Source: Loxodes magnus
Taxonomy: Eukaryota; Ciliophora; Karyorelictea; Loxodida; Loxodidae
Assembly: GCA_946699065.1 (NCBI GenBank)
Contig: CAMPDV010000281.1
Span: 248,001 to 312,000, forward strand
Length of the DNA stretch: 64,000 bases
Direction: 5' to 3'
Position numbers and translations under genes: made by a program. Positions 2,423 to 35,503 of this stretch are shown here, piece by piece (position 1 is the first letter of the stretch; the number at the start of each line of letters is the position of its first letter). Under the pieces are notes generated by a model that was not told the DNA's origin, made no database searches, and saw only the letters and a program-made list of their open reading frames with translations.

Positions 2423-3058
2423 ATGCTACAAATAAGAGAAAGAGATGTTGAATATTTTGAAACAGTTTATGAAGAATAAAAGGAAAAATAGTTTGTGTAG
2501 TAAGAATATGTTGAAAATGAAACTTAAGAAAAAGAGGTGTAAAAGTAAAGAGTTTTATATAAGACAGAACAAGTTTAAAAGATAAGAAAAGTATAGATTG
2601 AGCGTTGAGGTTAAAAAAAATATTTTGGAAAGTTTGGTCCTAGATATAAATGAATTGAGGAAAGTTGAGAACCATATTATGAAAATGAATAAAAACCTTA
2701 TATAGAATAATACACAGATATTGAATACGTAACAGTTCCAGTAATAAGAACTCGTTAAGTAGAAGTGGAAGAAGTAAAATAAGTTCCAATCGAGGTGAAA
2801 AAAGTAAGATAAGAGATTTATGTTGAGTTGGTCTAAAAAGAAGTAAATAAACAAAGAGATGAATGGTATGTGAAATACTCTGAGGAAGAAATTCGTGAAA
2901 AAGCGTTTGAATCCTTAAAGTAGAAAGTATTAAACCAATAAACTTAATAAAGCTATATTTGTTTCTATATATTCGTTTTTGGTAAATATTTCCATTTTAA
3001 TATAATTTTTATTAAAAGTATACTTAACAATTATAATATAAGTCATTCAGAAAGATGA
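2423..3058 (+). pseudogene. GTPase copy 1, N-terminally truncated (no GTPase domain)
   Basis: The left array junction removes the first 231 codons. The flanking DNA supplies an in-frame ATG at 2423 and three further codons before array codon 232, so a 211-residue frame runs to TGA at 3056-3058. It would keep the charged Val/Pro-rich region and the hydrophobic C-terminus but lack every nucleotide-binding motif. Whether it is expressed is unknown; the in-frame ATG may be chance. Confidence 0.6.
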
Positions 3059-3808
3059 GAAATTATAATATGATAGAACTTGAAAAGTTGTATAAGGTAT
3101 TATGTAAGATTTGTGTATGAAGACGAAAACATCTAATATAGAAGAAAGCATTATACTTTCTGACTCAACTTAGAAGCTTGAAGATGAATAATCCACAAGG
3201 TGTACAGCTTAATTTCTTTAGTGAGTATTCATAAAGATTCGTATATATTTACTTTAATTATTTTATTAAAATATTTAAAGAAGCATAAATCTAAAAAACT
3301 ATCCAAAAAATTGAAACTGAAAAATATTTATAAAGACAATCATAAAGATTGTAAGTAAAAAAAATTAATTGCTGATTCAAAAAGTGTGCATGCTTCCTCA
3401 TAATGATAGACTATGAAAAGGCAAGACTAAAGATACATGCTTGTTGGTAAAGACTTTTTGGCAGATGCAATATGTTGCCGATTTACACTAAATATAGTAA
3501 TTTAGTTCTTTATAAATGAGCACTAATATTGTTTAAGTGATGATTATGTTTTTGAACTCCGAAAAAAATAATAAAGCAAGTAATTAGCTATAATAATTTG
3601 CAATAAATAGGGTAAACCTATGACTTTAACATAACTGAAGATTTTACATTTTGATATAAGGTAAAATATTTTAAACTCTACTAAATTATGTTGCTAGTAT
3701 GTTATAAAACAGTAGTTTTATGTTTAATTTTGCATTATTTCTTTTATAAGTTTTTAAATCATACAATAAAGGTACTTTATAATAGAAACTATAAAGTCAT
3801 TATATAAC

Positions 3809-5125
3809 ATGGAATCAAATTAGAATGTTTTAGTTTGAATAGGATCCACTGGTCATGGTAAAACATCATGTATAAACAGTTATGCAGGTCTAACCTTGAG
3901 AACTGGAGCAGTTAATTCATGCACTTAGAATGTAGAATTTCATAAAAATAAAAAGGCTTTAGGATGAGTAGTGGACACACCTGGACTAAATGACAATAGA
4001 ATAGGTGAGTAGTTTAGTAATGATTAAATTAGACAAGCGATATGGTTCAGTATCTTGGAAAAACAAAATTTAACTAATTCTATTTGGTTTGTGTATGTTT
4101 TAAATCCTCACTAAAGACCTACATATAAGGATATAGAATTTTATTTTAGTATTTTAGGAAATGATTATCTTAAAAGTACAGTTTTTGTTATCACAAAAAA
4201 AGATTTAAGTAAGGACTAAGATTTGTAGGAAATTGAGGGAATGCTGAGAGAATTAGAATTACGTTATCATTAGTAGTTACTATTTGTACATTGGAAAAAT
4301 AGAGAGTGTACTGAAGAAGAAATGAACTTATAAATAAGAGAACTAAATGATAAACTAAGAAGACTACCACCCTATTAAAGTCAAGAAATTGTAAACTTCT
4401 AAAAACTTCTTGAAGAAGAAATTAAGACACAAAATACTAAAGAAGAAAACTTAGCAACAAGAGTAGTAGATTATTATGATTTAGAAGAAGTTCCAGAATA
4501 AAGAGAAAGAGATGTTGAATATTTTGAAACAGTTTATGAAGAATAAAAGGAAAAATAGTTTGTGTAGTAAGAATATGTTGAAAATGAAACTTAAGAAAAA
4601 GAGGTGTAAAAGTAAAGAGTTTTATATAAGACAGAACAAGTTTAAAAGATAAGAAAAGTATAGATTGAGCGTTGAGGTTAAAAAAAATATTTTGGAAAGT
4701 TTGGTCCTAGATATAAATGAATTGAGGAAAGTTGAGAACCATATTATGAAAATGAATAAAAACCTTATATAGAATAATACACAGATATTGAATACGTAAC
4801 AGTTCCAGTAATAAGAACTCGTTAAGTAGAAGTGGAAGAAGTAAAATAAGTTCCAATCGAGGTGAAAAAAGTAAGATAAGAGATTTATGTTGAGTTGGTC
4901 TAAAAAGAAGTAAATAAACAAAGAGATGAATGGTATGTGAAATACTCTGAGGAAGAAATTCGTGAAAAAGCGTTTGAATCCTTAAAGTAGAAAGTATTAA
5001 ACCAATAAACTTAATAAAGCTATATTTGTTTCTATATATTCGTTTTTGGTAAATATTTCCATTTTAATATAATTTTTATTAAAAGTATACTTAACAATTA
5101 TAATATAAGTCATTCAGAAAGATGA
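3809..5125 (+). CDS. AIG1/GIMAP-like GTPase with charged Val/Pro-rich region and hydrophobic tail, copy 2 (reference copy)
   Basis: A 438-residue protein when TAA/TAG are read as Gln and TGA as Trp, ending at TGA 5123-5125. The N-terminal 190 residues carry the GTPase motifs: P-loop GSTGHGKTS (12-20), a candidate switch Thr39, DTPG (56-59) and TKKD (129-132). These are typical of TRAFAC GTPases of the AIG1/Toc34/septin group; the TKxD form and likely tail anchor favour AIG1/GIMAP. Residues 190-400 are highly charged and probably helical; 325-362 have alternating Val-Pro/Val-Glu steps like alveolin or articulin repeats. Residues 404-433 are hydrophobic and could anchor the protein in a membrane. 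Trp is encoded by TGA at 10, 53, 289, 304 and 309 and by TGG at 79, 93, 162 and 375. The ATG was chosen just upstream of the first GTPase strand; the frame stays TGA-free for about 400 bp further upstream. If TAA can terminate, the protein could end near residue 400. Confidence 0.85.
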
Positions 5126-5875
5126 GAAATTATAATATGATAGAACTTGAAAAGTTGTATAAGGTATTATGTAAGATTTGTGTATGAAGACGAAAACATC
5201 TAATATAGAAGAAAGCATTATACTTTCTGACTCAACTTAGAAGCTTGAAGATGAATAATCCACAAGGTGTACAGCTTAATTTCTTTAGTGAGTATTCATA
5301 AAGATTCGTATATATTTACTTTAATTATTTTATTAAAATATTTAAAGAAGCATAAATCTAAAAAACTATCCAAAAAATTGAAACTGAAAAATATTTATAA
5401 AGACAATCATAAAGATTGTAAGTAAAAAAAATTAATTGCTGATTCAAAAAGTGTGCATGCTTCCTCATAATGATAGACTATGAAAAGGCAAGACTAAAGA
5501 TACATGCTTGTTGGTAAAGACTTTTTGGCAGATGCAATATGTTGCCGATTTACACTAAATATAGTAATTTAGTTCTTTATAAATGAGCACTAATATTGTT
5601 TAAGTGATGATTATGTTTTTGAACTCCGAAAAAAATAATAAAGCAAGTAATTAGCTATAATAATTTGCAATAAATAGGGTAAACCTATGACTTTAACATA
5701 ACTGAAGATTTTACATTTTGATATAAGGTAAAATATTTTAAACTCTACTAAATTATGTTGCTAGTATGTTATAAAACAGTAGTTTTATGTTTAATTTTGC
5801 ATTATTTCTTTTATAAGTTTTTAAATCATACAATAAAGGTACTTTATAATAGAAACTATAAAGTCATTATATAAC
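5126..5875. other. Spacer of the array unit (750 bp, repeated between all copies)
   Basis: This stretch separates the stop of one GTPase copy from the ATG of the next. It is AT-rich and contains several in-frame TGA codons in its first half. Its second half (from about 5477) is TGA-free in the frame of the downstream gene and reads into it, so a longer N-terminus cannot be excluded. Five of the eight single-base insertions of the array fall in copies of this spacer, which argues that it is mostly non-coding. Promoter and 3' signals must lie here but I cannot assign them. Equivalent spacers follow each copy. Confidence 0.6.
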
Positions 5876-7192
5876 ATGGAATCAAATTAGAATGTTTTAG
5901 TTTGAATAGGATCCACTGGTCATGGTAAAACATCATGTATAAACAGTTATGCAGGTCTAACCTTGAGAACTGGAGCAGTTAATTCATGCACTTAGAATGT
6001 AGAATTTCATAAAAATAAAAAGGCTTTAGGATGAGTAGTGGACACACCTGGACTAAATGACAATAGAATAGGTGAGTAGTTTAGTAATGATTAAATTAGA
6101 CAAGCGATATGGTTCAGTATCTTGGAAAAACAAAATTTAACTAATTCTATTTGGTTTGTGTATGTTTTAAATCCTCACTAAAGACCTACATATAAGGATA
6201 TAGAATTTTATTTTAGTATTTTAGGAAATGATTATCTTAAAAGTACAGTTTTTGTTATCACAAAAAAAGATTTAAGTAAGGACTAAGATTTGTAGGAAAT
6301 TGAGGGAATGCTGAGAGAATTAGAATTACGTTATCATTAGTAGTTACTATTTGTACATTGGAAAAATAGAGAGTGTACTGAAGAAGAAATGAACTTATAA
6401 ATAAGAGAACTAAATGATAAACTAAGAAGACTACCACCCTATTAAAGTCAAGAAATTGTAAACTTCTAAAAACTTCTTGAAGAAGAAATTAAGACACAAA
6501 ATACTAAAGAAGAAAACTTAGCAACAAGAGTAGTAGATTATTATGATTTAGAAGAAGTTCCAGAATAAAGAGAAAGAGATGTTGAATATTTTGAAACAGT
6601 TTATGAAGAATAAAAGGAAAAATAGTTTGTGTAGTAAGAATATGTTGAAAATGAAACTTAAGAAAAAGAGGTGTAAAAGTAAAGAGTTTTATATAAGACA
6701 GAACAAGTTTAAAAGATAAGAAAAGTATAGATTGAGCGTTGAGGTTAAAAAAAATATTTTGGAAAGTTTGGTCCTAGATATAAATGAATTGAGGAAAGTT
6801 GAGAACCATATTATGAAAATGAATAAAAACCTTATATAGAATAATACACAGATATTGAATACGTAACAGTTCCAGTAATAAGAACTCGTTAAGTAGAAGT
6901 GGAAGAAGTAAAATAAGTTCCAATCGAGGTGAAAAAAGTAAGATAAGAGATTTATGTTGAGTTGGTCTAAAAAGAAGTAAATAAACAAAGAGATGAATGG
7001 TATGTGAAATACTCTGAGGAAGAAATTCGTGAAAAAGCGTTTGAATCCTTAAAGTAGAAAGTATTAAACCAATAAACTTAATAAAGCTATATTTGTTTCT
7101 ATATATTCGTTTTTGGTAAATATTTCCATTTTAATATAATTTTTATTAAAAGTATACTTAACAATTATAATATAAGTCATTCAGAAAGATGA
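5876..7192 (+). CDS. AIG1-like GTPase, copy 3
   Basis: Same length and frame as the copy at 3809-5125, with no difference noticed in the coding part. It carries the G variant of the synonymous Val codon at the position equivalent to 21104. The downstream spacer has the C variant. Confidence 0.85.
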
Positions 7193-7942
7193 GAAATTAT
7201 AATATGATAGAACTTGAAAAGTTGTATAAGGTATTATGTAAGATTTGTGTATGAAGACGAAAACATCTAATATAGAAGAAAGCATTATACTTTCTGACTC
7301 AACTTAGAAGCTTGAAGATGAATAATCCACAAGGTGTACAGCTTAATTTCTTTAGTGAGTATTCATAAAGATTCGTATATATTTACTTTAATTATTTTAT
7401 TAAAATATTTAAAGAAGCATAAATCTAAAAAACTATCCAAAAAATTGAAACTGAAAAATATTTATAAAGACAATCATAAAGATTGTAAGTAAAAAAAATT
7501 AATTGCTGATTCAAAAAGTGTGCATGCTTCCTCATAATGATAGACTATGAAAAGGCAAGACTAAAGATACATGCTTGTTGGTAAAGACTTTTTGGCAGAT
7601 GCAATATGTTGCCGATTTACACTAAATATAGTAATTTAGTTCTTTATAAATGAGCACTAATATTGTTTAAGTGATGATTATGTTTTTGAACTCCGAAAAA
7701 AATAATAAAGCAAGTAATTAGCTATAATAATTTGCAATAAATAGGGTAAACCTATGACTTTAACATAACTGAAGATTTTACATTTTGATATAAGGTAAAA
7801 TATTTTAAACTCTACTAAATTATGTTGCTAGTATGTTATAAAACAGTAGTTTTATGTTTAATTTTGCATTATTTCTTTTATAAGTTTTTAAATCATACAA
7901 TAAAGGTACTTTATAATAGAAACTATAAAGTCATTATATAAC

Positions 7943-9259
7943 ATGGAATCAAATTAGAATGTTTTAGTTTGAATAGGATCCACTGGTCATGGTAAAACAT
8001 CATGTATAAACAGTTATGCAGGTCTAACCTTGAGAACTGGAGCAGTTAATTCATGCACTTAGAATGTAGAATTTCATAAAAATAAAAAGGCTTTAGGATG
8101 AGTAGTGGACACACCTGGACTAAATGACAATAGAATAGGTGAGTAGTTTAGTAATGATTAAATTAGACAAGCGATATGGTTCAGTATCTTGGAAAAACAA
8201 AATTTAACTAATTCTATTTGGTTTGTGTATGTTTTAAATCCTCACTAAAGACCTACATATAAGGATATAGAATTTTATTTTAGTATTTTAGGAAATGATT
8301 ATCTTAAAAGTACAGTTTTTGTTATCACAAAAAAAGATTTAAGTAAGGACTAAGATTTGTAGGAAATTGAGGGAATGCTGAGAGAATTAGAATTACGTTA
8401 TCATTAGTAGTTACTATTTGTACATTGGAAAAATAGAGAGTGTACTGAAGAAGAAATGAACTTATAAATAAGAGAACTAAATGATAAACTAAGAAGACTA
8501 CCACCCTATTAAAGTCAAGAAATTGTAAACTTCTAAAAACTTCTTGAAGAAGAAATTAAGACACAAAATACTAAAGAAGAAAACTTAGCAACAAGAGTAG
8601 TAGATTATTATGATTTAGAAGAAGTTCCAGAATAAAGAGAAAGAGATGTTGAATATTTTGAAACAGTTTATGAAGAATAAAAGGAAAAATAGTTTGTGTA
8701 GTAAGAATATGTTGAAAATGAAACTTAAGAAAAAGAGGTGTAAAAGTAAAGAGTTTTATATAAGACAGAACAAGTTTAAAAGATAAGAAAAGTATAGATT
8801 GAGCGTTGAGGTTAAAAAAAATATTTTGGAAAGTTTGGTCCTAGATATAAATGAATTGAGGAAAGTTGAGAACCATATTATGAAAATGAATAAAAACCTT
8901 ATATAGAATAATACACAGATATTGAATACGTAACAGTTCCAGTAATAAGAACTCGTTAAGTAGAAGTGGAAGAAGTAAAATAAGTTCCAATCGAGGTGAA
9001 AAAAGTAAGATAAGAGATTTATGTTGAGTTGGTCTAAAAAGAAGTAAATAAACAAAGAGATGAATGGTATGTGAAATACTCTGAGGAAGAAATTCGTGAA
9101 AAAGCGTTTGAATCCTTAAAGTAGAAAGTATTAAACCAATAAACTTAATAAAGCTATATTTGTTTCTATATATTCGTTTTTGGTAAATATTTCCATTTTA
9201 ATATAATTTTTATTAAAAGTATACTTAACAATTATAATATAAGTCATTCAGAAAGATGA
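7943..9259 (+). CDS. AIG1-like GTPase, copy 4
   Basis: Intact 438-codon frame ending in TGA. G variant in the gene, C variant in the downstream spacer. Confidence 0.85.
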
Positions 9260-13393: not shown

Positions 13394-14144
13394 GAAATTA
13401 TAATATGATAGAACTTGAAAAGTTGTATAAGGTATTATGTAAGATTTGTGTATGAAGACGAAAACATCTAATATAGAAGAAAGCATTATACTTTCTGACT
13501 CAACTTAGAAGCTTGAAGATGAATAATCCACAAGGTGTACAGCTTAATTTCTTTAGTGAGTATTCATAAAGATTCGTATATATTTACTTTAATTATTTTA
13601 TTAAAATATTTAAAGAAGCATAAATCTAAAAAACTATCCAAAAAATTGAAACTGAAAAATATTTATAAAGACAATCATAAAGATTGTAAGTAAAAAAAAT
13701 TAATTGCTGATTCAAAAAGTGTGCATGCTTCTTCATAATGATAGACTATGAAAAGGCAAGACTAAAGATACATGCTTGTTGGTAAAGACTTTTTGGCAGA
13801 TGCAATATGTTGCCGATTTTACACTAAATATAGTAATTTAGTTCTTTATAAATGAGCACTAATATTGTTTAAGTGATGATTATGTTTTTGAACTCCGAAA
13901 AAAATAATAAAGCAAGTAATTAGCTATAATAATTTGCAATAAATAGGGTAAACCTATGACTTTAACATAACTGAAGATTTTACATTTTGATATAAGGTAA
14001 AATATTTTAAACTCTACTAAATTATGTTGCTAGTATGTTATAAAACAGTAGTTTTATGTTTAATTTTGCATTATTTCTTTTATAAGTTTTTAAATCATAC
14101 AATAAAGGTACTTTATAATAGAAACTATAAAGTCATTATATAAC

Positions 14145-15461
14145 ATGGAATCAAATTAGAATGTTTTAGTTTGAATAGGATCCACTGGTCATGGTAAAAC
14201 ATCATGTATAAACAGTTATGCAGGTCTAACCTTGAGAACTGGAGCAGTTAATTCATGCACTTAGAATGTAGAATTTCATAAAAATAAAAAGGCTTTAGGA
14301 TGAGTAGTGGACACACCTGGACTAAATGACAATAGAATAGGTGAGTAGTTTAGTAATGATTAAATTAGACAAGCGATATGGTTCAGTATCTTGGAAAAAC
14401 AAAATTTAACTAATTCTATTTGGTTTGTGTATGTTTTAAATCCTCACTAAAGACCTACATATAAGGATATAGAATTTTATTTTAGTATTTTAGGAAATGA
14501 TTATCTTAAAAGTACAGTTTTTGTTATCACAAAAAAAGATTTAAGTAAGGACTAAGATTTGTAGGAAATTGAGGGAATGCTGAGAGAATTAGAATTACGT
14601 TATCATTAGTAGTTACTATTTGTACATTGGAAAAATAGAGAGTGTACTGAAGAAGAAATGAACTTATAAATAAGAGAACTAAATGATAAACTAAGAAGAC
14701 TACCACCCTATTAAAGTCAAGAAATTGTAAACTTCTAAAAACTTCTTGAAGAAGAAATTAAGACACAAAATACTAAAGAAGAAAACTTAGCAACAAGAGT
14801 AGTAGATTATTATGATTTAGAAGAAGTTCCAGAATAAAGAGAAAGAGATGTTGAATATTTTGAAACAGTTTATGAAGAATAAAAGGAAAAATAGTTTGTG
14901 TAGTAAGAATATGTTGAAAATGAAACTTAAGAAAAAGAGGTGTAAAAGTAAAGAGTTTTATATAAGACAGAACAAGTTTAAAAGATAAGAAAAGTATAGA
15001 TTGAGCGTTGAGGTTAAAAAAAATATTTTGGAAAGTTTGGTCCTAGATATAAATGAATTGAGGAAAGTTGAGAACCATATTATGAAAATGAATAAAAACC
15101 TTATATAGAATAATACACAGATATTGAATACGTAACAGTTCCAGTAATAAGAACTCGTTAAGTAGAAGTGGAAGAAGTAAAATAAGTTCCAATCGAGGTG
15201 AAAAAAGTAAGATAAGAGATTTATGTTGAGTTGGTCTAAAAAGAAGTAAATAAACAAAGAGATGAATGGTATGTGAAATACTCTGAGGAAGAAATTCGTG
15301 AAAAAGCGTTTGAATCCTTAAAGTAGAAAGTATTAAACCAATAAACTTAATAAAGCTATATTTGTTTCTATATATTCGTTTTTGGTAAATATTTCCATTT
15401 TAATATAATTTTTATTAAAAGTATACTTAACAATTATAATATAAGTCATTCAGAAAGATGA
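14145..15461 (+). CDS. AIG1-like GTPase, copy 7
   Basis: Intact 438-codon frame. T variant in the downstream spacer, G variant in the gene. Confidence 0.85.
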
Positions 15462-16211
15462 GAAATTATAATATGATAGAACTTGAAAAGTTGTATAAGG
15501 TATTATGTAAGATTTGTGTATGAAGACGAAAACATCTAATATAGAAGAAAGCATTATACTTTCTGACTCAACTTAGAAGCTTGAAGATGAATAATCCACA
15601 AGGTGTACAGCTTAATTTCTTTAGTGAGTATTCATAAAGATTCGTATATATTTACTTTAATTATTTTATTAAAATATTTAAAGAAGCATAAATCTAAAAA
15701 ACTATCCAAAAAATTGAAACTGAAAAATATTTATAAAGACAATCATAAAGATTGTAAGTAAAAAAAATTAATTGCTGATTCAAAAAGTGTGCATGCTTCT
15801 TCATAATGATAGACTATGAAAAGGCAAGACTAAAGATACATGCTTGTTGGTAAAGACTTTTTGGCAGATGCAATATGTTGCCGATTTACACTAAATATAG
15901 TAATTTAGTTCTTTATAAATGAGCACTAATATTGTTTAAGTGATGATTATGTTTTTGAACTCCGAAAAAAATAATAAAGCAAGTAATTAGCTATAATAAT
16001 TTGCAATAAATAGGGTAAACCTATGACTTTAACATAACTGAAGATTTTACATTTTGATATAAGGTAAAATATTTTAAACTCTACTAAATTATGTTGCTAG
16101 TATGTTATAAAACAGTAGTTTTATGTTTAATTTTGCATTATTTCTTTTATAAGTTTTTAAATCATACAATAAAGGTACTTTATAATAGAAACTATAAAGT
16201 CATTATATAAC

Positions 16212-17529
16212 ATGGAATCAAATTAGAATGTTTTAGTTTGAATAGGATCCACTGGTCATGGTAAAACATCATGTATAAACAGTTATGCAGGTCTAACCTT
16301 GAGAACTGGAGCAGTTAATTCATGCACTTAGAATGTAGAATTTCATAAAAATAAAAAGGCTTTAGGATGAGTAGTGGACACACCTGGACTAAATGACAAT
16401 AGAATAGGTGAGTAGTTTAGTAATGATTAAATTAGACAAGCGATATGGTTCAGTATCTTGGAAAAACAAAATTTAACTAATTCTATTTGGTTTGTGTATG
16501 TTTTAAATCCTCACTAAAGACCTACATATAAGGATATAGAATTTTATTTTAGTATTTTAGGAAATGATTATCTTAAAAGTACAGTTTTTGTTATCACAAA
16601 AAAAGATTTAAGTAAGGACTAAGATTTGTAGGAAATTGAGGGAATGCTGAGAGAATTAGAATTACGTTATCATTAGTAGTTACTATTTGTACATTGGAAA
16701 AATAGAGAGTGTACTGAAGAAGAAATGAACTTATAAATAAGAGAACTAAATGATAAACTAAGAAGACTACCACCCTATTAAAGTCAAGAAATTGTAAACT
16801 TCTAAAAACTTCTTGAAGAAGAAATTAAGACACAAAATACTAAAGAAGAAAACTTAGCAACAAGAGTAGTAGATTATTATGATTTAGAAGAAGTTCCAGA
16901 ATAAAGAGAAAGAGATGTTGAATATTTTGAAACAGTTTATGAAGAATAAAAGGAAAAATAGTTTGTGTAGTAAGAATATGTTGAAAATGAAACTTAAGAA
17001 AAAGAGGTGTAAAAGTAAAGAGTTTTATATAAGACAGAACAAGTTTAAAAGATAAGAAAAGTATAGATTGAGCGTTGAGGTTAAAAAAAATATTTTGGAA
17101 AGTTTGGTCCTAGATATAAATGAATTGAGGAAAGTTGAGAACCATATTATGAAAATGAATAAAAACCTTATATAGAATAATACACAGATATTGAATACGT
17201 AACAGTTCCAGTAATAAGAACTCGTTAAGTAGAAGTGGAAGAAGTAAAATAAGTTCCAATCGAGGTGAAAAAAGTAAGATAAGAGATTTATGTTGAGTTG
17301 GTCTAAAAAGAAGTAAATAAACAAAGAGATGAATGGTATGTGAAATACTCTGAGGAAGAAATTCGTGAAAAAGCGTTTGAATCCTTAAAGTAGAAAGTAT
17401 TAAACCAATAAACTTAATAAAGCTATATTTGTTTCTATATATTCGTTTTTGGTAAATATTTCCATTTTAATATAATTTTTTATTAAAAGTATACTTAACA
17501 ATTATAATATAAGTCATTCAGAAAGATGA
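16212..17529 (+). CDS. AIG1-like GTPase, copy 8, +1 T near the C-terminus
   Basis: One extra T in the T-run near 17475-17481 shifts the frame inside the hydrophobic C-terminal tail (about residue 420). The GTPase and charged regions are unaffected; only the last residues change. The extra base could be real slippage or a sequencing error in a homopolymer. Confidence 0.75.
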
Positions 17530-18279
17530 GAAATTATAATATGATAGAACTTGAAAAGTTGTATAAGGTATTATGTAAGATTTGTGTATGAAGACGAAAA
17601 CATCTAATATAGAAGAAAGCATTATACTTTCTGACTCAACTTAGAAGCTTGAAGATGAATAATCCACAAGGTGTACAGCTTAATTTCTTTAGTGAGTATT
17701 CATAAAGATTCGTATATATTTACTTTAATTATTTTATTAAAATATTTAAAGAAGCATAAATCTAAAAAACTATCCAAAAAATTGAAACTGAAAAATATTT
17801 ATAAAGACAATCATAAAGATTGTAAGTAAAAAAAATTAATTGCTGATTCAAAAAGTGTGCATGCTTCTTCATAATGATAGACTATGAAAAGGCAAGACTA
17901 AAGATACATGCTTGTTGGTAAAGACTTTTTGGCAGATGCAATATGTTGCCGATTTACACTAAATATAGTAATTTAGTTCTTTATAAATGAGCACTAATAT
18001 TGTTTAAGTGATGATTATGTTTTTGAACTCCGAAAAAAATAATAAAGCAAGTAATTAGCTATAATAATTTGCAATAAATAGGGTAAACCTATGACTTTAA
18101 CATAACTGAAGATTTTACATTTTGATATAAGGTAAAATATTTTAAACTCTACTAAATTATGTTGCTAGTATGTTATAAAACAGTAGTTTTATGTTTAATT
18201 TTGCATTATTTCTTTTATAAGTTTTTAAATCATACAATAAAGGTACTTTATAATAGAAACTATAAAGTCATTATATAAC

Positions 18280-19597
18280 ATGGAATCAAATTAGAATGTT
18301 TTAGTTTGAATAGGATCCACTGGTCATGGTAAAACATCATGTATAAACAGTTATGCAGGTCTAACCTTGAGAACTGGAGCAGTTAATTCATGCACTTAGA
18401 ATGTAGAATTTCATAAAAATAAAAAGGCTTTAGGATGAGTAGTGGACACACCTGGACTAAATGACAATAGAATAGGTGAGTAGTTTAGTAATGATTAAAT
18501 TAGACAAGCGATATGGTTCAGTATCTTGGAAAAACAAAATTTAACTAATTCTATTTGGTTTGTGTATGTTTTAAATCCTCACTAAAGACCTACATATAAG
18601 GATATAGAATTTTATTTTAGTATTTTAGGAAATGATTATCTTAAAAGTACAGTTTTTGTTATCACAAAAAAAGATTTAAGTAAGGACTAAGATTTGTAGG
18701 AAATTGAGGGAATGCTGAGAGAATTAGAATTACGTTATCATTAGTAGTTACTATTTGTACATTGGAAAAATAGAGAGTGTACTGAAGAAGAAATGAACTT
18801 ATAAATAAGAGAACTAAATGATAAACTAAGAAGACTACCACCCTATTAAAGTCAAGAAATTGTAAACTTCTAAAAACTTCTTGAAGAAGAAATTAAGACA
18901 CAAAATACTAAAGAAGAAAACTTAGCAACAAGAGTAGTAGATTATTATGATTTAGAAGAAGTTCCAGAATAAAGAGAAAGAGATGTTGAATATTTTGAAA
19001 CAGTTTATGAAGAATAAAAGGAAAAATAGTTTGTGTAGTAAGAATATGTTGAAAATGAAACTTAAGAAAAAGAGGTGTAAAAGTAAAGAGTTTTATATAA
19101 GACAGAACAAGTTTAAAAGATAAGAAAAGTATAGATTGAGCGTTGAGGTTAAAAAAAATATTTTGGAAAGTTTGGTCCTAGATATAAATGAATTGAGGAA
19201 AGTTGAGAACCATATTATGAAAATGAATAAAAACCTTATATAGAATAATACACAGATATTGAATACGTAACAGTTCCAGTAATAAGAACTCGTTAAGTAG
19301 AAGTGGAAGAAGTAAAATAAGTTCCAATCGAGGTGAAAAAAAGTAAGATAAGAGATTTATGTTGAGTTGGTCTAAAAAGAAGTAAATAAACAAAGAGATG
19401 AATGGTATGTGAAATACTCTGAGGAAGAAATTCGTGAAAAAGCGTTTGAATCCTTAAAGTAGAAAGTATTAAACCAATAAACTTAATAAAGCTATATTTG
19501 TTTCTATATATTCGTTTTTGGTAAATATTTCCATTTTAATATAATTTTTATTAAAAGTATACTTAACAATTATAATATAAGTCATTCAGAAAGATGA
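18280..19597 (+). CDS. AIG1-like GTPase, copy 9, +1 A in the charged region
   Basis: An A-run at about 19336-19342 has one more A than the other copies. This frameshifts the gene near residue 353, inside the Val/Pro-rich repeats, and would remove the C-terminal tail if real. Confidence 0.7.
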
Positions 19598-20348
19598 GAA
19601 ATTATAATATGATAGAACTTGAAAAGTTGTATAAGGTATTATGTAAGATTTGTGTATGAAGACGAAAACATCTAATATAGAAGAAAGCATTATACTTTCT
19701 GACTCAACTTAGAAGCTTGAAGATGAATAATCCACAAGGTGTACAGCTTAATTTCTTTAGTGAGTATTCATAAAGATTCGTATATATTTACTTTAATTAT
19801 TTTATTAAAATATTTAAAGAAGCATAAATCTAAAAAACTATCCAAAAAATTGAAACTGAAAAATATTTATAAAGACAATCATAAAGATTGTAAGTAAAAA
19901 AAATTAATTGCTGATTCAAAAAGTGTGCATGCTTCTTCATAATGATAGACTATGAAAAGGCAAGACTAAAGATACATGCTTGTTGGTAAAGACTTTTTGG
20001 CAGATGCAATATGTTGCCGATTTACACTAAATATAGTAATTTAGTTCTTTATAAATGAGCACTAATATTGTTTAAGTGATGATTATGTTTTTGAACTCCG
20101 AAAAAAATAATAAAGCAAGTAATTAGCTATAATAATTTGCAATAAATAGGGTAAACCTATGACTTTAACATAACTGAAGATTTTACATTTTGATATAAGG
20201 TAAAATATTTTAAACTCTACTAAATTATGTTGCTAGTATGTTATAAAACAGTAGTTTTATGTTTAATTTTGCATTATTTCTTTTATAAGTTTTTTAAATC
20301 ATACAATAAAGGTACTTTATAATAGAAACTATAAAGTCATTATATAAC

Positions 20349-21665
20349 ATGGAATCAAATTAGAATGTTTTAGTTTGAATAGGATCCACTGGTCATGGTA
20401 AAACATCATGTATAAACAGTTATGCAGGTCTAACCTTGAGAACTGGAGCAGTTAATTCATGCACTTAGAATGTAGAATTTCATAAAAATAAAAAGGCTTT
20501 AGGATGAGTAGTGGACACACCTGGACTAAATGACAATAGAATAGGTGAGTAGTTTAGTAATGATTAAATTAGACAAGCGATATGGTTCAGTATCTTGGAA
20601 AAACAAAATTTAACTAATTCTATTTGGTTTGTGTATGTTTTAAATCCTCACTAAAGACCTACATATAAGGATATAGAATTTTATTTTAGTATTTTAGGAA
20701 ATGATTATCTTAAAAGTACAGTTTTTGTTATCACAAAAAAAGATTTAAGTAAGGACTAAGATTTGTAGGAAATTGAGGGAATGCTGAGAGAATTAGAATT
20801 ACGTTATCATTAGTAGTTACTATTTGTACATTGGAAAAATAGAGAGTGTACTGAAGAAGAAATGAACTTATAAATAAGAGAACTAAATGATAAACTAAGA
20901 AGACTACCACCCTATTAAAGTCAAGAAATTGTAAACTTCTAAAAACTTCTTGAAGAAGAAATTAAGACACAAAATACTAAAGAAGAAAACTTAGCAACAA
21001 GAGTAGTAGATTATTATGATTTAGAAGAAGTTCCAGAATAAAGAGAAAGAGATGTTGAATATTTTGAAACAGTTTATGAAGAATAAAAGGAAAAATAGTT
21101 TGTGTAGTAAGAATATGTTGAAAATGAAACTTAAGAAAAAGAGGTGTAAAAGTAAAGAGTTTTATATAAGACAGAACAAGTTTAAAAGATAAGAAAAGTA
21201 TAGATTGAGCGTTGAGGTTAAAAAAAATATTTTGGAAAGTTTGGTCCTAGATATAAATGAATTGAGGAAAGTTGAGAACCATATTATGAAAATGAATAAA
21301 AACCTTATATAGAATAATACACAGATATTGAATACGTAACAGTTCCAGTAATAAGAACTCGTTAAGTAGAAGTGGAAGAAGTAAAATAAGTTCCAATCGA
21401 GGTGAAAAAAGTAAGATAAGAGATTTATGTTGAGTTGGTCTAAAAAGAAGTAAATAAACAAAGAGATGAATGGTATGTGAAATACTCTGAGGAAGAAATT
21501 CGTGAAAAAGCGTTTGAATCCTTAAAGTAGAAAGTATTAAACCAATAAACTTAATAAAGCTATATTTGTTTCTATATATTCGTTTTTGGTAAATATTTCC
21601 ATTTTAATATAATTTTTATTAAAAGTATACTTAACAATTATAATATAAGTCATTCAGAAAGATGA
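20349..21665 (+). CDS. AIG1-like GTPase, copy 10
   Basis: Intact frame; the last copy with the G variant (21104). The spacer before it has one extra T near 20290. The spacer after it has three extra bases in A/T runs between about 21936 and 21992, the largest cluster of differences in the array. Confidence 0.85.
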
Positions 21666-22418
21666 GAAATTATAATATGATAGAACTTGAAAAGTTGTAT
21701 AAGGTATTATGTAAGATTTGTGTATGAAGACGAAAACATCTAATATAGAAGAAAGCATTATACTTTCTGACTCAACTTAGAAGCTTGAAGATGAATAATC
21801 CACAAGGTGTACAGCTTAATTTCTTTAGTGAGTATTCATAAAGATTCGTATATATTTACTTTAATTATTTTATTAAAATATTTAAAGAAGCATAAATCTA
21901 AAAAACTATCCAAAAAATTGAAACTGAAAAATATTTTATAAAGACAATCATAAAGATTGTAAGTAAAAAAAAATTAATTGCTGATTCAAAAAAGTGTGCA
22001 TGCTTCTTCATAATGATAGACTATGAAAAGGCAAGACTAAAGATACATGCTTGTTGGTAAAGACTTTTTGGCAGATGCAATATGTTGCCGATTTACACTA
22101 AATATAGTAATTTAGTTCTTTATAAATGAGCACTAATATTGTTTAAGTGATGATTATGTTTTTGAACTCCGAAAAAAATAATAAAGCAAGTAATTAGCTA
22201 TAATAATTTGCAATAAATAGGGTAAACCTATGACTTTAACATAACTGAAGATTTTACATTTTGATATAAGGTAAAATATTTTAAACTCTACTAAATTATG
22301 TTGCTAGTATGTTATAAAACAGTAGTTTTATGTTTAATTTTGCATTATTTCTTTTATAAGTTTTTAAATCATACAATAAAGGTACTTTATAATAGAAACT
22401 ATAAAGTCATTATATAAC

Positions 22419-23735
22419 ATGGAATCAAATTAGAATGTTTTAGTTTGAATAGGATCCACTGGTCATGGTAAAACATCATGTATAAACAGTTATGCAGGTC
22501 TAACCTTGAGAACTGGAGCAGTTAATTCATGCACTTAGAATGTAGAATTTCATAAAAATAAAAAGGCTTTAGGATGAGTAGTGGACACACCTGGACTAAA
22601 TGACAATAGAATAGGTGAGTAGTTTAGTAATGATTAAATTAGACAAGCGATATGGTTCAGTATCTTGGAAAAACAAAATTTAACTAATTCTATTTGGTTT
22701 GTGTATGTTTTAAATCCTCACTAAAGACCTACATATAAGGATATAGAATTTTATTTTAGTATTTTAGGAAATGATTATCTTAAAAGTACAGTTTTTGTTA
22801 TCACAAAAAAAGATTTAAGTAAGGACTAAGATTTGTAGGAAATTGAGGGAATGCTGAGAGAATTAGAATTACGTTATCATTAGTAGTTACTATTTGTACA
22901 TTGGAAAAATAGAGAGTGTACTGAAGAAGAAATGAACTTATAAATAAGAGAACTAAATGATAAACTAAGAAGACTACCACCCTATTAAAGTCAAGAAATT
23001 GTAAACTTCTAAAAACTTCTTGAAGAAGAAATTAAGACACAAAATACTAAAGAAGAAAACTTAGCAACAAGAGTAGTAGATTATTATGATTTAGAAGAAG
23101 TTCCAGAATAAAGAGAAAGAGATGTTGAATATTTTGAAACAGTTTATGAAGAATAAAAGGAAAAATAGTTTGTCTAGTAAGAATATGTTGAAAATGAAAC
23201 TTAAGAAAAAGAGGTGTAAAAGTAAAGAGTTTTATATAAGACAGAACAAGTTTAAAAGATAAGAAAAGTATAGATTGAGCGTTGAGGTTAAAAAAAATAT
23301 TTTGGAAAGTTTGGTCCTAGATATAAATGAATTGAGGAAAGTTGAGAACCATATTATGAAAATGAATAAAAACCTTATATAGAATAATACACAGATATTG
23401 AATACGTAACAGTTCCAGTAATAAGAACTCGTTAAGTAGAAGTGGAAGAAGTAAAATAAGTTCCAATCGAGGTGAAAAAAGTAAGATAAGAGATTTATGT
23501 TGAGTTGGTCTAAAAAGAAGTAAATAAACAAAGAGATGAATGGTATGTGAAATACTCTGAGGAAGAAATTCGTGAAAAAGCGTTTGAATCCTTAAAGTAG
23601 AAAGTATTAAACCAATAAACTTAATAAAGCTATATTTGTTTCTATATATTCGTTTTTGGTAAATATTTCCATTTTAATATAATTTTTATTAAAAGTATAC
23701 TTAACAATTATAATATAAGTCATTCAGAAAGATGA
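22419..23735 (+). CDS. AIG1-like GTPase, copy 11
   Basis: Intact frame. It is the first copy with the C variant (23174), a synonymous GTG to GTC valine change shared by all later copies. Confidence 0.85.
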
Positions 23736-24485
23736 GAAATTATAATATGATAGAACTTGAAAAGTTGTATAAGGTATTATGTAAGATTTGTGTATGAAGA
23801 CGAAAACATCTAATATAGAAGAAAGCATTATACTTTCTGACTCAACTTAGAAGCTTGAAGATGAATAATCCACAAGGTGTACAGCTTAATTTCTTTAGTG
23901 AGTATTCATAAAGATTCGTATATATTTACTTTAATTATTTTATTAAAATATTTAAAGAAGCATAAATCTAAAAAACTATCCAAAAAATTGAAACTGAAAA
24001 ATATTTATAAAGACAATCATAAAGATTGTAAGTAAAAAAAATTAATTGCTGATTCAAAAAGTGTGCATGCTTCTTCATAATGATAGACTATGAAAAGGCA
24101 AGACTAAAGATACATGCTTGTTGGTAAAGACTTTTTGGCAGATGCAATATGTTGCCGATTTACACTAAATATAGTAATTTAGTTCTTTATAAATGAGCAC
24201 TAATATTGTTTAAGTGATGATTATGTTTTTGAACTCCGAAAAAAATAATAAAGCAAGTAATTAGCTATAATAATTTGCAATAAATAGGGTAAACCTATGA
24301 CTTTAACATAACTGAAGATTTTACATTTTGATATAAGGTAAAATATTTTAAACTCTACTAAATTATGTTGCTAGTATGTTATAAAACAGTAGTTTTATGT
24401 TTAATTTTGCATTATTTCTTTTATAAGTTTTTAAATCATACAATAAAGGTACTTTATAATAGAAACTATAAAGTCATTATATAAC

Positions 24486-25803
24486 ATGGAATCAAATTAG
24501 AATGTTTTAGTTTGAATAGGATCCACTGGTCATGGTAAAACATCATGTATAAACAGTTATGCAGGTCTAACCTTGAGAACTGGAGCAGTTAATTCATGCA
24601 CTTAGAATGTAGAATTTCATAAAAATAAAAAGGCTTTAGGATGAGTAGTGGACACACCTGGACTAAATGACAATAGAATAGGTGAGTAGTTTAGTAATGA
24701 TTAAATTAGACAAGCGATATGGTTCAGTATCTTGGAAAAACAAAATTTAACTAATTCTATTTGGTTTGTGTATGTTTTAAATCCTCACTAAAGACCTACA
24801 TATAAGGATATAGAATTTTATTTTAGTATTTTAGGAAATGATTATCTTAAAAGTACAGTTTTTGTTATCACAAAAAAAGATTTAAGTAAGGACTAAGATT
24901 TGTAGGAAATTGAGGGAATGCTGAGAGAATTAGAATTACGTTATCATTAGTAGTTACTATTTGTACATTGGAAAAATAGAGAGTGTACTGAAGAAGAAAT
25001 GAACTTATAAATAAGAGAACTAAATGATAAACTAAGAAGACTACCACCCTATTAAAGTCAAGAAATTGTAAACTTCTAAAAACTTCTTGAAGAAGAAATT
25101 AAGACACAAAATACTAAAGAAGAAAACTTAGCAACAAGAGTAGTAGATTATTATGATTTAGAAGAAGTTCCAGAATAAAGAGAAAGAGATGTTGAATATT
25201 TTGAAACAGTTTATGAAGAATAAAAGGAAAAATAGTTTGTCTAGTAAGAATATGTTGAAAATGAAACTTAAGAAAAAGAGGTGTAAAAGTAAAGAGTTTT
25301 ATATAAGACAGAACAAGTTTAAAAGATAAGAAAAGTATAGATTGAGCGTTGAGGTTAAAAAAAATATTTTGGAAAGTTTGGTCCTAGATATAAATGAATT
25401 GAGGAAAGTTGAGAACCATATTATGAAAATGAATAAAAAACCTTATATAGAATAATACACAGATATTGAATACGTAACAGTTCCAGTAATAAGAACTCGT
25501 TAAGTAGAAGTGGAAGAAGTAAAATAAGTTCCAATCGAGGTGAAAAAAGTAAGATAAGAGATTTATGTTGAGTTGGTCTAAAAAGAAGTAAATAAACAAA
25601 GAGATGAATGGTATGTGAAATACTCTGAGGAAGAAATTCGTGAAAAAGCGTTTGAATCCTTAAAGTAGAAAGTATTAAACCAATAAACTTAATAAAGCTA
25701 TATTTGTTTCTATATATTCGTTTTTGGTAAATATTTCCATTTTAATATAATTTTTATTAAAAGTATACTTAACAATTATAATATAAGTCATTCAGAAAGA
25801 TGA
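24486..25803 (+). CDS. AIG1-like GTPase, copy 12, +1 A in the charged region
   Basis: The A-run at about 25434-25439 has one extra A, which would frameshift the gene near residue 318, before the Val/Pro-rich repeats. GTPase motifs are intact. Confidence 0.7.
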
Positions 25804-28620: not shown

Positions 28621-29937
28621 ATGGAATCAAATTAGAATGTTTTAGTTTGAATAGGATCCACTGGTCATGGTAAAACATCATGTATAAACAGTTATGCAGG
28701 TCTAACCTTGAGAACTGGAGCAGTTAATTCATGCACTTAGAATGTAGAATTTCATAAAAATAAAAAGGCTTTAGGATGAGTAGTGGACACACCTGGACTA
28801 AATGACAATAGAATAGGTGAGTAGTTTAGTAATGATTAAATTAGACAAGCGATATGGTTCAGTATCTTGGAAAAACAAAATTTAACTAATTCTATTTGGT
28901 TTGTGTATGTTTTAAATCCTCACTAAAGACCTACATATAAGGATATAGAATTTTATTTTAGTATTTTAGGAAATGATTATCTTAAAAGTACAGTTTTTGT
29001 TATCACAAAAAAAGATTTAAGTAAGGACTAAGATTTGTAGGAAATTGAGGGAATGCTGAGAGAATTAGAATTACGTTATCATTAGTAGTTACTATTTGTA
29101 CATTGGAAAAATAGAGAGTGTACTGAAGAAGAAATGAACTTATAAATAAGAGAACTAAATGATAAACTAAGAAGACTACCACCCTATTAAAGTCAAGAAA
29201 TTGTAAACTTCTAAAAACTTCTTGAAGAAGAAATTAAGACACAAAATACTAAAGAAGAAAACTTAGCAACAAGAGTAGTAGATTATTATGATTTAGAAGA
29301 AGTTCCAGAATAAAGAGAAAGAGATGTTGAATATTTTGAAACAGTTTATGAAGAATAAAAGGAAAAATAGTTTGTCTAGTAAGAATATGTTGAAAATGAA
29401 ACTTAAGAAAAAGAGGTGTAAAAGTAAAGAGTTTTATATAAGACAGAACAAGTTTAAAAGATAAGAAAAGTATAGATTGAGCGTTGAGGTTAAAAAAAAT
29501 ATTTTGGAAAGTTTGGTCCTAGATATAAATGAATTGAGGAAAGTTGAGAACCATATTATGAAAATGAATAAAAACCTTATATAGAATAATACACAGATAT
29601 TGAATACGTAACAGTTCCAGTAATAAGAACTCGTTAAGTAGAAGTGGAAGAAGTAAAATAAGTTCCAATCGAGGTGAAAAAAGTAAGATAAGAGATTTAT
29701 GTTGAGTTGGTCTAAAAAGAAGTAAATAAACAAAGAGATGAATGGTATGTGAAATACTCTGAGGAAGAAATTCGTGAAAAAGCGTTTGAATCCTTAAAGT
29801 AGAAAGTATTAAACCAATAAACTTAATAAAGCTATATTTGTTTCTATATATTCGTTTTTGGTAAATATTTCCATTTTAATATAATTTTTATTAAAAGTAT
29901 ACTTAACAATTATAATATAAGTCATTCAGAAAGATGA
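28621..29937 (+). CDS. AIG1-like GTPase, copy 14
   Basis: Intact 438-codon frame, C variant in the gene and T variant in the spacer. Confidence 0.85.
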
Positions 29938-30687
29938 GAAATTATAATATGATAGAACTTGAAAAGTTGTATAAGGTATTATGTAAGATTTGTGTATGAA
30001 GACGAAAACATCTAATATAGAAGAAAGCATTATACTTTCTGACTCAACTTAGAAGCTTGAAGATGAATAATCCACAAGGTGTACAGCTTAATTTCTTTAG
30101 TGAGTATTCATAAAGATTCGTATATATTTACTTTAATTATTTTATTAAAATATTTAAAGAAGCATAAATCTAAAAAACTATCCAAAAAATTGAAACTGAA
30201 AAATATTTATAAAGACAATCATAAAGATTGTAAGTAAAAAAAATTAATTGCTGATTCAAAAAGTGTGCATGCTTCTTCATAATGATAGACTATGAAAAGG
30301 CAAGACTAAAGATACATGCTTGTTGGTAAAGACTTTTTGGCAGATGCAATATGTTGCCGATTTACACTAAATATAGTAATTTAGTTCTTTATAAATGAGC
30401 ACTAATATTGTTTAAGTGATGATTATGTTTTTGAACTCCGAAAAAAATAATAAAGCAAGTAATTAGCTATAATAATTTGCAATAAATAGGGTAAACCTAT
30501 GACTTTAACATAACTGAAGATTTTACATTTTGATATAAGGTAAAATATTTTAAACTCTACTAAATTATGTTGCTAGTATGTTATAAAACAGTAGTTTTAT
30601 GTTTAATTTTGCATTATTTCTTTTATAAGTTTTTAAATCATACAATAAAGGTACTTTATAATAGAAACTATAAAGTCATTATATAAC

Positions 30688-32004
30688 ATGGAATCAAATT
30701 AGAATGTTTTAGTTTGAATAGGATCCACTGGTCATGGTAAAACATCATGTATAAACAGTTATGCAGGTCTAACCTTGAGAACTGGAGCAGTTAATTCATG
30801 CACTTAGAATGTAGAATTTCATAAAAATAAAAAGGCTTTAGGATGAGTAGTGGACACACCTGGACTAAATGACAATAGAATAGGTGAGTAGTTTAGTAAT
30901 GATTAAATTAGACAAGCGATATGGTTCAGTATCTTGGAAAAACAAAATTTAACTAATTCTATTTGGTTTGTGTATGTTTTAAATCCTCACTAAAGACCTA
31001 CATATAAGGATATAGAATTTTATTTTAGTATTTTAGGAAATGATTATCTTAAAAGTACAGTTTTTGTTATCACAAAAAAAGATTTAAGTAAGGACTAAGA
31101 TTTGTAGGAAATTGAGGGAATGCTGAGAGAATTAGAATTACGTTATCATTAGTAGTTACTATTTGTACATTGGAAAAATAGAGAGTGTACTGAAGAAGAA
31201 ATGAACTTATAAATAAGAGAACTAAATGATAAACTAAGAAGACTACCACCCTATTAAAGTCAAGAAATTGTAAACTTCTAAAAACTTCTTGAAGAAGAAA
31301 TTAAGACACAAAATACTAAAGAAGAAAACTTAGCAACAAGAGTAGTAGATTATTATGATTTAGAAGAAGTTCCAGAATAAAGAGAAAGAGATGTTGAATA
31401 TTTTGAAACAGTTTATGAAGAATAAAAGGAAAAATAGTTTGTCTAGTAAGAATATGTTGAAAATGAAACTTAAGAAAAAGAGGTGTAAAAGTAAAGAGTT
31501 TTATATAAGACAGAACAAGTTTAAAAGATAAGAAAAGTATAGATTGAGCGTTGAGGTTAAAAAAAATATTTTGGAAAGTTTGGTCCTAGATATAAATGAA
31601 TTGAGGAAAGTTGAGAACCATATTATGAAAATGAATAAAAACCTTATATAGAATAATACACAGATATTGAATACGTAACAGTTCCAGTAATAAGAACTCG
31701 TTAAGTAGAAGTGGAAGAAGTAAAATAAGTTCCAATCGAGGTGAAAAAAGTAAGATAAGAGATTTATGTTGAGTTGGTCTAAAAAGAAGTAAATAAACAA
31801 AGAGATGAATGGTATGTGAAATACTCTGAGGAAGAAATTCGTGAAAAAGCGTTTGAATCCTTAAAGTAGAAAGTATTAAACCAATAAACTTAATAAAGCT
31901 ATATTTGTTTCTATATATTCGTTTTTGGTAAATATTTCCATTTTAATATAATTTTTATTAAAAGTATACTTAACAATTATAATATAAGTCATTCAGAAAG
32001 ATGA
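30688..32004 (+). CDS. AIG1-like GTPase, copy 15
   Basis: Intact 438-codon frame, C variant in the gene and T variant in the spacer. Confidence 0.85.
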
Positions 32005-32754
32005 GAAATTATAATATGATAGAACTTGAAAAGTTGTATAAGGTATTATGTAAGATTTGTGTATGAAGACGAAAACATCTAATATAGAAGAAAGCATTAT
32101 ACTTTCTGACTCAACTTAGAAGCTTGAAGATGAATAATCCACAAGGTGTACAGCTTAATTTCTTTAGTGAGTATTCATAAAGATTCGTATATATTTACTT
32201 TAATTATTTTATTAAAATATTTAAAGAAGCATAAATCTAAAAAACTATCCAAAAAATTGAAACTGAAAAATATTTATAAAGACAATCATAAAGATTGTAA
32301 GTAAAAAAAATTAATTGCTGATTCAAAAAGTGTGCATGCTTCTTCATAATGATAGACTATGAAAAGGCAAGACTAAAGATACATGCTTGTTGGTAAAGAC
32401 TTTTTGGCAGATGCAATATGTTGCCGATTTACACTAAATATAGTAATTTAGTTCTTTATAAATGAGCACTAATATTGTTTAAGTGATGATTATGTTTTTG
32501 AACTCCGAAAAAAATAATAAAGCAAGTAATTAGCTATAATAATTTGCAATAAATAGGGTAAACCTATGACTTTAACATAACTGAAGATTTTACATTTTGA
32601 TATAAGGTAAAATATTTTAAACTCTACTAAATTATGTTGCTAGTATGTTATAAAACAGTAGTTTTATGTTTAATTTTGCATTATTTCTTTTATAAGTTTT
32701 TAAATCATACAATAAAGGTACTTTATAATAGAAACTATAAAGTCATTATATAAC

Positions 32755-34071
32755 ATGGAATCAAATTAGAATGTTTTAGTTTGAATAGGATCCACTGGTC
32801 ATGGTAAAACATCATGTATAAACAGTTATGCAGGTCTAACCTTGAGAACTGGAGCAGTTAATTCATGCACTTAGAATGTAGAATTTCATAAAAATAAAAA
32901 GGCTTTAGGATGAGTAGTGGACACACCTGGACTAAATGACAATAGAATAGGTGAGTAGTTTAGTAATGATTAAATTAGACAAGCGATATGGTTCAGTATC
33001 TTGGAAAAACAAAATTTAACTAATTCTATTTGGTTTGTGTATGTTTTAAATCCTCACTAAAGACCTACATATAAGGATATAGAATTTTATTTTAGTATTT
33101 TAGGAAATGATTATCTTAAAAGTACAGTTTTTGTTATCACAAAAAAAGATTTAAGTAAGGACTAAGATTTGTAGGAAATTGAGGGAATGCTGAGAGAATT
33201 AGAATTACGTTATCATTAGTAGTTACTATTTGTACATTGGAAAAATAGAGAGTGTACTGAAGAAGAAATGAACTTATAAATAAGAGAACTAAATGATAAA
33301 CTAAGAAGACTACCACCCTATTAAAGTCAAGAAATTGTAAACTTCTAAAAACTTCTTGAAGAAGAAATTAAGACACAAAATACTAAAGAAGAAAACTTAG
33401 CAACAAGAGTAGTAGATTATTATGATTTAGAAGAAGTTCCAGAATAAAGAGAAAGAGATGTTGAATATTTTGAAACAGTTTATGAAGAATAAAAGGAAAA
33501 ATAGTTTGTCTAGTAAGAATATGTTGAAAATGAAACTTAAGAAAAAGAGGTGTAAAAGTAAAGAGTTTTATATAAGACAGAACAAGTTTAAAAGATAAGA
33601 AAAGTATAGATTGAGCGTTGAGGTTAAAAAAAATATTTTGGAAAGTTTGGTCCTAGATATAAATGAATTGAGGAAAGTTGAGAACCATATTATGAAAATG
33701 AATAAAAACCTTATATAGAATAATACACAGATATTGAATACGTAACAGTTCCAGTAATAAGAACTCGTTAAGTAGAAGTGGAAGAAGTAAAATAAGTTCC
33801 AATCGAGGTGAAAAAAGTAAGATAAGAGATTTATGTTGAGTTGGTCTAAAAAGAAGTAAATAAACAAAGAGATGAATGGTATGTGAAATACTCTGAGGAA
33901 GAAATTCGTGAAAAAGCGTTTGAATCCTTAAAGTAGAAAGTATTAAACCAATAAACTTAATAAAGCTATATTTGTTTCTATATATTCGTTTTTGGTAAAT
34001 ATTTCCATTTTAATATAATTTTTATTAAAAGTATACTTAACAATTATAATATAAGTCATTCAGAAAGATGA
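32755..34071 (+). CDS. AIG1-like GTPase, copy 16 (last complete copy)
   Basis: Intact 438-codon frame ending in TGA at 34069-34071, followed by a full spacer and the start of the truncated seventeenth copy. Confidence 0.85.
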
Positions 34072-34821
34072 GAAATTATAATATGATAGAACTTGAAAAG
34101 TTGTATAAGGTATTATGTAAGATTTGTGTATGAAGACGAAAACATCTAATATAGAAGAAAGCATTATACTTTCTGACTCAACTTAGAAGCTTGAAGATGA
34201 ATAATCCACAAGGTGTACAGCTTAATTTCTTTAGTGAGTATTCATAAAGATTCGTATATATTTACTTTAATTATTTTATTAAAATATTTAAAGAAGCATA
34301 AATCTAAAAAACTATCCAAAAAATTGAAACTGAAAAATATTTATAAAGACAATCATAAAGATTGTAAGTAAAAAAAATTAATTGCTGATTCAAAAAGTGT
34401 GCATGCTTCTTCATAATGATAGACTATGAAAAGGCAAGACTAAAGATACATGCTTGTTGGTAAAGACTTTTTGGCAGATGCAATATGTTGCCGATTTACA
34501 CTAAATATAGTAATTTAGTTCTTTATAAATGAGCACTAATATTGTTTAAGTGATGATTATGTTTTTGAACTCCGAAAAAAATAATAAAGCAAGTAATTAG
34601 CTATAATAATTTGCAATAAATAGGGTAAACCTATGACTTTAACATAACTGAAGATTTTACATTTTGATATAAGGTAAAATATTTTAAACTCTACTAAATT
34701 ATGTTGCTAGTATGTTATAAAACAGTAGTTTTATGTTTAATTTTGCATTATTTCTTTTATAAGTTTTTAAATCATACAATAAAGGTACTTTATAATAGAA
34801 ACTATAAAGTCATTATATAAC

Positions 34822-35503
34822 ATGGAATCAAATTAGAATGTTTTAGTTTGAATAGGATCCACTGGTCATGGTAAAACATCATGTATAAACAGTTATGCAG
34901 GTCTAACCTTGAGAACTGGAGCAGTTAATTCATGCACTTAGAATGTAGAATTTCATAAAAATAAAAAGGCTTTAGGATGAGTAGTGGACACACCTGGACT
35001 AAATGACAATAGAATAGGTGAGTAGTTTAGTAATGATTAAATTAGACAAGCGATATGGTTCAGTATCTTGGAAAAACAAAATTTAACTAATTCTATTTGG
35101 TTTGTGTATGTTTTAAATCCTCACTAAAGACCTACATATAAGGATATAGAATTTTATTTTAGTATTTTAGGAAATGATTATCTTAAAAGTACAGTTTTTG
35201 TTATCACAAAAAAAGATTTAAGTAAGGACTAAGATTTGTAGGAAATTGAGGGAATGCTGAGAGAATTAGAATTACGTTATCATTAGTAGTTACTATTTGT
35301 ACATTGGAAAAATAGAGAGTGTACTGAAGAAGAAATGAACTTATAAATAAGAGAACTAAATGATAAACTAAGAAGACTACCACCCTATTAAAGTCAAGAA
35401 ATTGTAAACTTCTAAAAACTTCTTGAAGAAGAAATTAAGACACAAAATACTAAAGAAGAAAACTTAGCAACAAGAGTAGTAGATTATTATGATTTAGAAG
35501 AAG
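34822..35503 (+). pseudogene. GTPase copy 17, truncated at the right array junction
   Basis: The complete GTPase domain (227 codons, including P-loop, DTPG and TKKD) is present. The array then ends and unrelated AT-rich DNA follows from 35504. The frame stays open into the flank, so a chimeric protein without the charged region and the tail is possible. Together with the truncated copy at 2423-3058 it adds up to about one gene. Confidence 0.75.

Follow-up and report, generated by a model that had tools for sequence, protein, structure and literature searches.

How did one gene come to stand sixteen times in a row at a single site of a ciliate genome? The question is raised by a 64,000-nucleotide stretch of Loxodes magnus DNA, hereafter the window (contig CAMPDV010000281.1, forward-strand positions 248,001 to 312,000; C281:248001-312000 in our searches). 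Within it, positions 2434-35503 form a tandem array whose ~2067-bp unit holds one gene for an AIG1-like GTPase and one spacer. We give a probability of roughly 55% to the reading that this is a young array, in which circle-derived DNA would have been inserted at a new site and then recently expanded by recombination.

Self-comparison of k-mers resolves a single repeat block (2434-35503, plus strand), with a period that is mostly 2067 bp and 2068-2071 bp in some comparisons. An anchor from the unit occurs 16 times, head to tail, at spacings of 2067-2070 bp, and the array amounts to 16 units of this length minus 10 bp. An earlier note on this DNA, made from the letters alone, had described a 16-unit, 33-kb array, and this description is borne out; 33 kb of units this much alike cannot be put down to chance. 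The 15 full-length genes that it counted are likewise present, although two of them carry a one-base insertion: the 16 gene starts lead to 13 identical proteins of 399 residues, two frameshifted copies and a last copy cut off by the array end, so that 13 full-length genes are intact in the assembly. The first complete gene (3809-5005, plus strand; 399 codons in code table 27) recurs in 14 more units. Table 27 is the code of L. magnus, TGA being read as tryptophan, or as a stop near the end of the messenger (PMC11441545); with the standard code, no frame of at least 150 residues appears. Both frameshifted copies (18280-19477 and 24486-25683, plus strand) have one extra A in an A run, losing the frame from residue 355 and residue 319, respectively; these insertions are probably polishing errors.

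Across the 16 units, the only differences are two substitutions and eight single-base insertions in A or T runs. One substitution lies in the spacer (position 5464, plus strand; C in units 1-5, T in units 6-16) and the other in the gene (position 4564, plus strand; G in units 1-10, C in units 11-16), where it is silent, GTG and GTC both encoding valine. Any two units differ by 0.96 substitutions on average, or 0.046%, which is more than tenfold below the genome heterozygosity of ~0.6% (PMC11441545) and supports the earlier view that near-absent divergence reflects very recent amplification or active homogenization. Both substitutions are confined to end blocks, of 5/16 and 6/16 units, for which random placement gives probabilities of 4.6e-4 and 2.5e-4. 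Blocks of this kind are what later unequal exchange between units could leave.

The array starts and stops inside the gene. At its left end stands the C-terminal part (2434-2938, plus strand), with the N-terminal part missing from the flank, and at its right end the N-terminal part (34822-35503, plus strand), cut from residue 228. Because of 10 bp that both ends lack, the array just misses a whole number of units; two random ends would agree this closely in phase with a chance of ~1%. The 4-mer AAAT adjoins the array on both sides (2430-2433 and 35504-35507, plus strand), which has a probability of 1.6% for random positions in these flanks. Our searches covered an assembly of 705,730,643 bases in 7843 contigs, published as the 706-Mbp macronuclear assembly of L. 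magnus (PMC11441545); counts from them are lower bounds, and all first-look candidates were scored (18/18, 25/25 and 16/16). Both flanks are single-copy: 2000 bp of the left flank have one match in the assembly, and 1597 bp of the right flank have one full match plus four short, weak ones. The remainder of the broken gene was found in neither flank.

Where, then, does the gene occur otherwise? Only one other locus was found in the assembly, at C1023:60991-62030 on a different contig, with 83% and 78% identity in two pieces; a protein search agrees. The spacer's matches (16/16) all lie in the array, with none found elsewhere in the assembly. Similarity to C1023 is secure over 5500-5875, upstream of the start codon, where it scores 201 compared with at most 60 in 161 control placements, and it continues through the coding part to about codon 396. 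This stretch, which resembles sequence upstream of the homologue, belongs to the spacer (5126-5875, plus strand). The resemblance may reach back to ~5287, as a local alignment can be stretched that far, but 4994-5499 alone scores 53 against C1023 versus up to 64 in 40 shuffles. Neither flank of the array has similarity to the 10-kb C1023 stretch. The order of the parts also differs: at C1023 it is upstream region, N part, C part, whereas between the array ends it is C part, spacer, upstream region, N part, a circular permutation.

Aligned over their coding parts, the array gene and C1023 are separated by 11 indels, 7 of which have lengths not divisible by three. The array frame is nevertheless open, so it is the C1023 locus that is decayed. 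A long gap in this alignment spans 125 or 126 bases, depending on the alignment. Nonsynonymous (dN) and synonymous (dS) divergence between array and C1023 are 0.133 and 0.313 in the G domain, and 0.17 and 0.40 in the C-terminal block, values that point to constraint on the pair over much of its history. Past its C-terminal GTPase part, the C1023 sequence keeps its frame into a TPR match (27.0 bits; cut-off 26.8), and protein kinase matches come next, in two other frames. Viewed as a whole, C1023:56000-65999 presents sequence of an AIG1-like GTPase, of TPR type and of a protein kinase one after the other, broken by several frameshifts.

The array gene seems to break off where its homologue goes on. 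Beyond codon 399, the frame continues for 39 residues to the first in-frame TGA (5006-5125, plus strand), and this AT-rich, hydrophobic tail is not coding-like: its GC content is 17% versus 28% in the coding part, it lacks codon periodicity, and its codon score is -22, whereas the preceding 39-codon blocks are positive in 8 of 10 cases. The score is an imperfect guide, the two negative blocks (-4.9 and -3.2) both lying in the G domain. Past about codon 396, the tail finds no similarity in the homologue. Codon use ceases to look coding-like at about the place, near codon 396, where similarity to C1023 ends, and the array gene is therefore most readily seen as truncated at its 3' end. Translation may nevertheless extend into the tail, TGA being the sole stop in table 27. 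The earlier note called the GTPase membrane-anchored, a proposal that we do not uphold: the hydrophobicity maximum of 1.71 is matched by 797 of 5643 AT-rich control frames and by 15% of shuffles, and codon score, base composition and the missing similarity all speak against it. An intron that would provide a cleaner stop was also considered and rejected. Ten GT-AG candidates of 16-26 bp occur in 4901-5125, none a multiple of three in length; with two of them, the protein (371 or 374 residues) would stop short of the end of the conserved part, and with the others it would have 438-451 residues.

The features that we count for insertion of circle-derived DNA are the phase of the ends, the double AAAT, the single-copy flanks, the permuted order, the common stop near codon 396, the substitutions in end blocks and the open frame of the array gene. 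The events can be pictured as follows. A segment with the upstream region and the 5' part of the gene (GTPase and charged coil, cut before the TPR-kinase part) would have circularized to give a molecule of ~2.07 kb. Either this circle or a multimer would then have opened inside the gene and joined an unrelated AT-rich site, losing 10 bp; AAAT of the target was possibly duplicated in this step. Opening inside the gene would account for the permuted order and the equal phase together, and the 10 bp missing at the ends, which the internal units contain, must then have come from an intact circle or multimer. Further circles entering through homologous recombination, or unequal exchange between units, would have raised the number to ~16, and two later mutations would have spread as neighbouring blocks. 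Each internal unit restores the reading frame and has an upstream region of its own, so that the outcome, if the copies are expressed, would be a higher dose of a truncated GTPase.

Gene arrays usually stem from unequal exchange, and this one could instead have begun as a tandem duplication in situ that unequal crossing over then enlarged, with what was left of the broken gene later deleted from both flanks or overwritten there. The block pattern of the two substitutions suits this course of events as well. However, after duplication in situ one would expect the flanks to retain the remainder of the broken gene, which was found in neither; moreover, independent losses at the two ends would agree in phase to 10 bp in only ~1% of cases. 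We regard duplication in situ as a realistic but unlikely origin. That the unit is a selfish amplicon, as the earlier note thought possible, or a mobile one is scarcely credible. The unit is compact, brings its own gene and has AAAT on both sides, as a mobile element might, but unit and spacer were found nowhere else in the assembly apart from the one decayed homologue of the gene, so that dispersal is not supported, and three unit frames scanned gave no recombinase or transposase family.

The proposed mechanism has precedents. In Saccharomyces cerevisiae, XylA on an extrachromosomal circle was reintegrated as tandem repeats (PMC4352087). The likeness extends to one gene amplified head to tail with no repeats flanking the amplified segment; the yeast array, however, stood at the original locus and its circle was isolated (PMC4352087), whereas the Loxodes site is unrelated to that of the homologue and its circle is inferred. 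In human segmental duplications, the order A-B/C-D becomes B-A/D-C through circular intermediates (PMC7450558). The order there is likewise permuted relative to the homologous locus, with only short features at the joints, but the human cases are described as single duplications (PMC7450558), while the insertion in Loxodes would be multimeric. If the circle reading is true, a karyorelict ciliate makes multicopy genes by the circle-and-insert route known from yeast and human. Karyorelict somatic nuclei are reported to lack extensive genome editing, and yet multicopy genes would form in such an organism. The array would then offer an uncluttered example from nature: one insertion into unrelated DNA, a whole number of units and two mutations that mark the spread of units.

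Several observations weigh against this account. No circle or circle joint was seen. The coincidences of phase and of AAAT were spotted post hoc, and each has a probability of 1-2%. The C1023 locus, rather than the array, could be the one that was rearranged, and the G-domain dN/dS of ~0.4 is not separable between the array and C1023 branches. The assembly holds no second allele of either flank, and no array-free haplotype or empty site was found in it. Finally, all eight homopolymer insertions lie within 13817-25435, more than 10 kb from either flank, and this clustering leaves the middle of the array weakly supported.

The same clustering bears on whether the array is partly a product of assembly, that is, a real insertion of a few units whose number and homogeneity were set by the assembler and by polishing. 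All eight insertions fall inside the middle 11.6 kb; we read them as errors, and as a sign that flank-anchored reads reach ~10-11 kb inward. The filter at quality 20 in the genome paper, which we take from the option to be one of mapping quality, would leave the array middle unpolished. The assembly was made with Falcon at an identity setting of 0.96 and ~20-30x coverage, and only reads above quality 20 were used for polishing (PMC11441545). The genome paper itself suspects misassembly of low-complexity repeats (PMC11441545). On the other side, the two substitutions are still resolved in ordered blocks, both array ends continue into single-copy flanks, a stray contig of units was not found in the assembly, and a chimera would leave the equal phase at both ends unexplained. 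The earlier note had named an assembly artefact as what would undo its array; this objection is answered only in part, for although the array continues into unique sequence on both sides, its middle owes its unit count to the assembly. About ten units appear anchored from the two sides, with the number between them the assembler's estimate. We consider it distinctly unlikely that the array is in part such a product of assembly.

What the array encodes is best called an AIG1-like GTPase, as the earlier note had it. The protein reaches 31.1 bits against Pfam AIG1 (PF04548; cut-off 27) over profile positions 3-205 of 212, and 24 bits against MMR_HSR1 (cut-off 21.9). The AIG1 model is of limited specificity, with matches in 12 of 14 control genomes and scores over the cut-off in 7 of them, and 'AIG1-like' is therefore the more cautious label. 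Likeness to the AIG1/GIMAP family lies in a score over the cut-off along the domain, in the P-loop GSTGHGKT and the motifs DTPG and TKKD, and in GIMAP4 (3lxx) as the nearest, and only, solved sequence matched, weakly, at an E value of 0.0078. Unlike that family, the array protein has a charged C-terminal coil, and its homologue continues into TPR and kinase sequence. Single-sequence structure prediction gave a mean predicted local distance difference test score (pLDDT) of 37.8, too low to use. As every unit keeps the upstream region common with C1023, each copy may be transcribed on its own, and a dosage benefit from the array, which the earlier note brought up, is possible.

Other AIG1 matches also cluster in this genome. 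A Pfam-based list holds 53 of them in the assembly; the window's copies are missing from it, so the list is incomplete, and it may include other GTPases because the model is not very specific. Three contigs account for 34 of the 53 listed matches (C258 with 16, C539 with 11 and C466 with 7); their orientation mostly alternates, and spacings of 17-20 kb are frequent. Two stretches of C258 match each other at 96% over 5.2 kb in inverted orientation. At C148:513513-531491, three equal-scoring matches lie on one strand, 8798 and 8797 bp apart, which suggests an 8.8-kb tandem repeat. From the three contigs and the C148 repeat, one might propose that AIG1-type GTPase genes are amplified time and again in Loxodes, in this array by way of a DNA circle, that this serves as a dosage or immunity-like response, and that the product selected in the array is the GTPase freed from TPR-kinase; we hold this to be quite improbable.

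A literature search, which did not extend to supplements, listed no paper that describes this array, or any arrays of AIG1 genes in Loxodes. In Tandem Repeats Finder (TRF), the setting of 2000 is the longest period. The genome paper ran TRF with this setting (PMC11441545), and a 2067-bp unit would exceed its limit. In our own TRF run with a longest period of 500, the array was not listed, owing to the period limit.

Little else was found in the unit. A gene in the spacer was rejected, as two spacer frames gave no family over the cut-off and the in-frame stretch upstream of the start codon has no codon periodicity. Long minus-strand frames under table 6 were also set aside, one translation being rich in F, I and L. 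RNA families in 4990-5900 gave no match up to an E value of 1, phage records no match, and NCBIfam nothing above cut-off. Elsewhere in the window, a protein kinase match (51203-51760, minus strand) has a TGA within its matched part, which agrees with a sense role of this codon in flanking genes too. The right flank also carries a U6 spliceosomal RNA gene (61989-62095, plus strand) and four tRNA genes (37123-37196, plus; 38078-38149, minus; 46568-46639, plus; 48466-48538, minus), two of which are proline tRNAs with equal scores.

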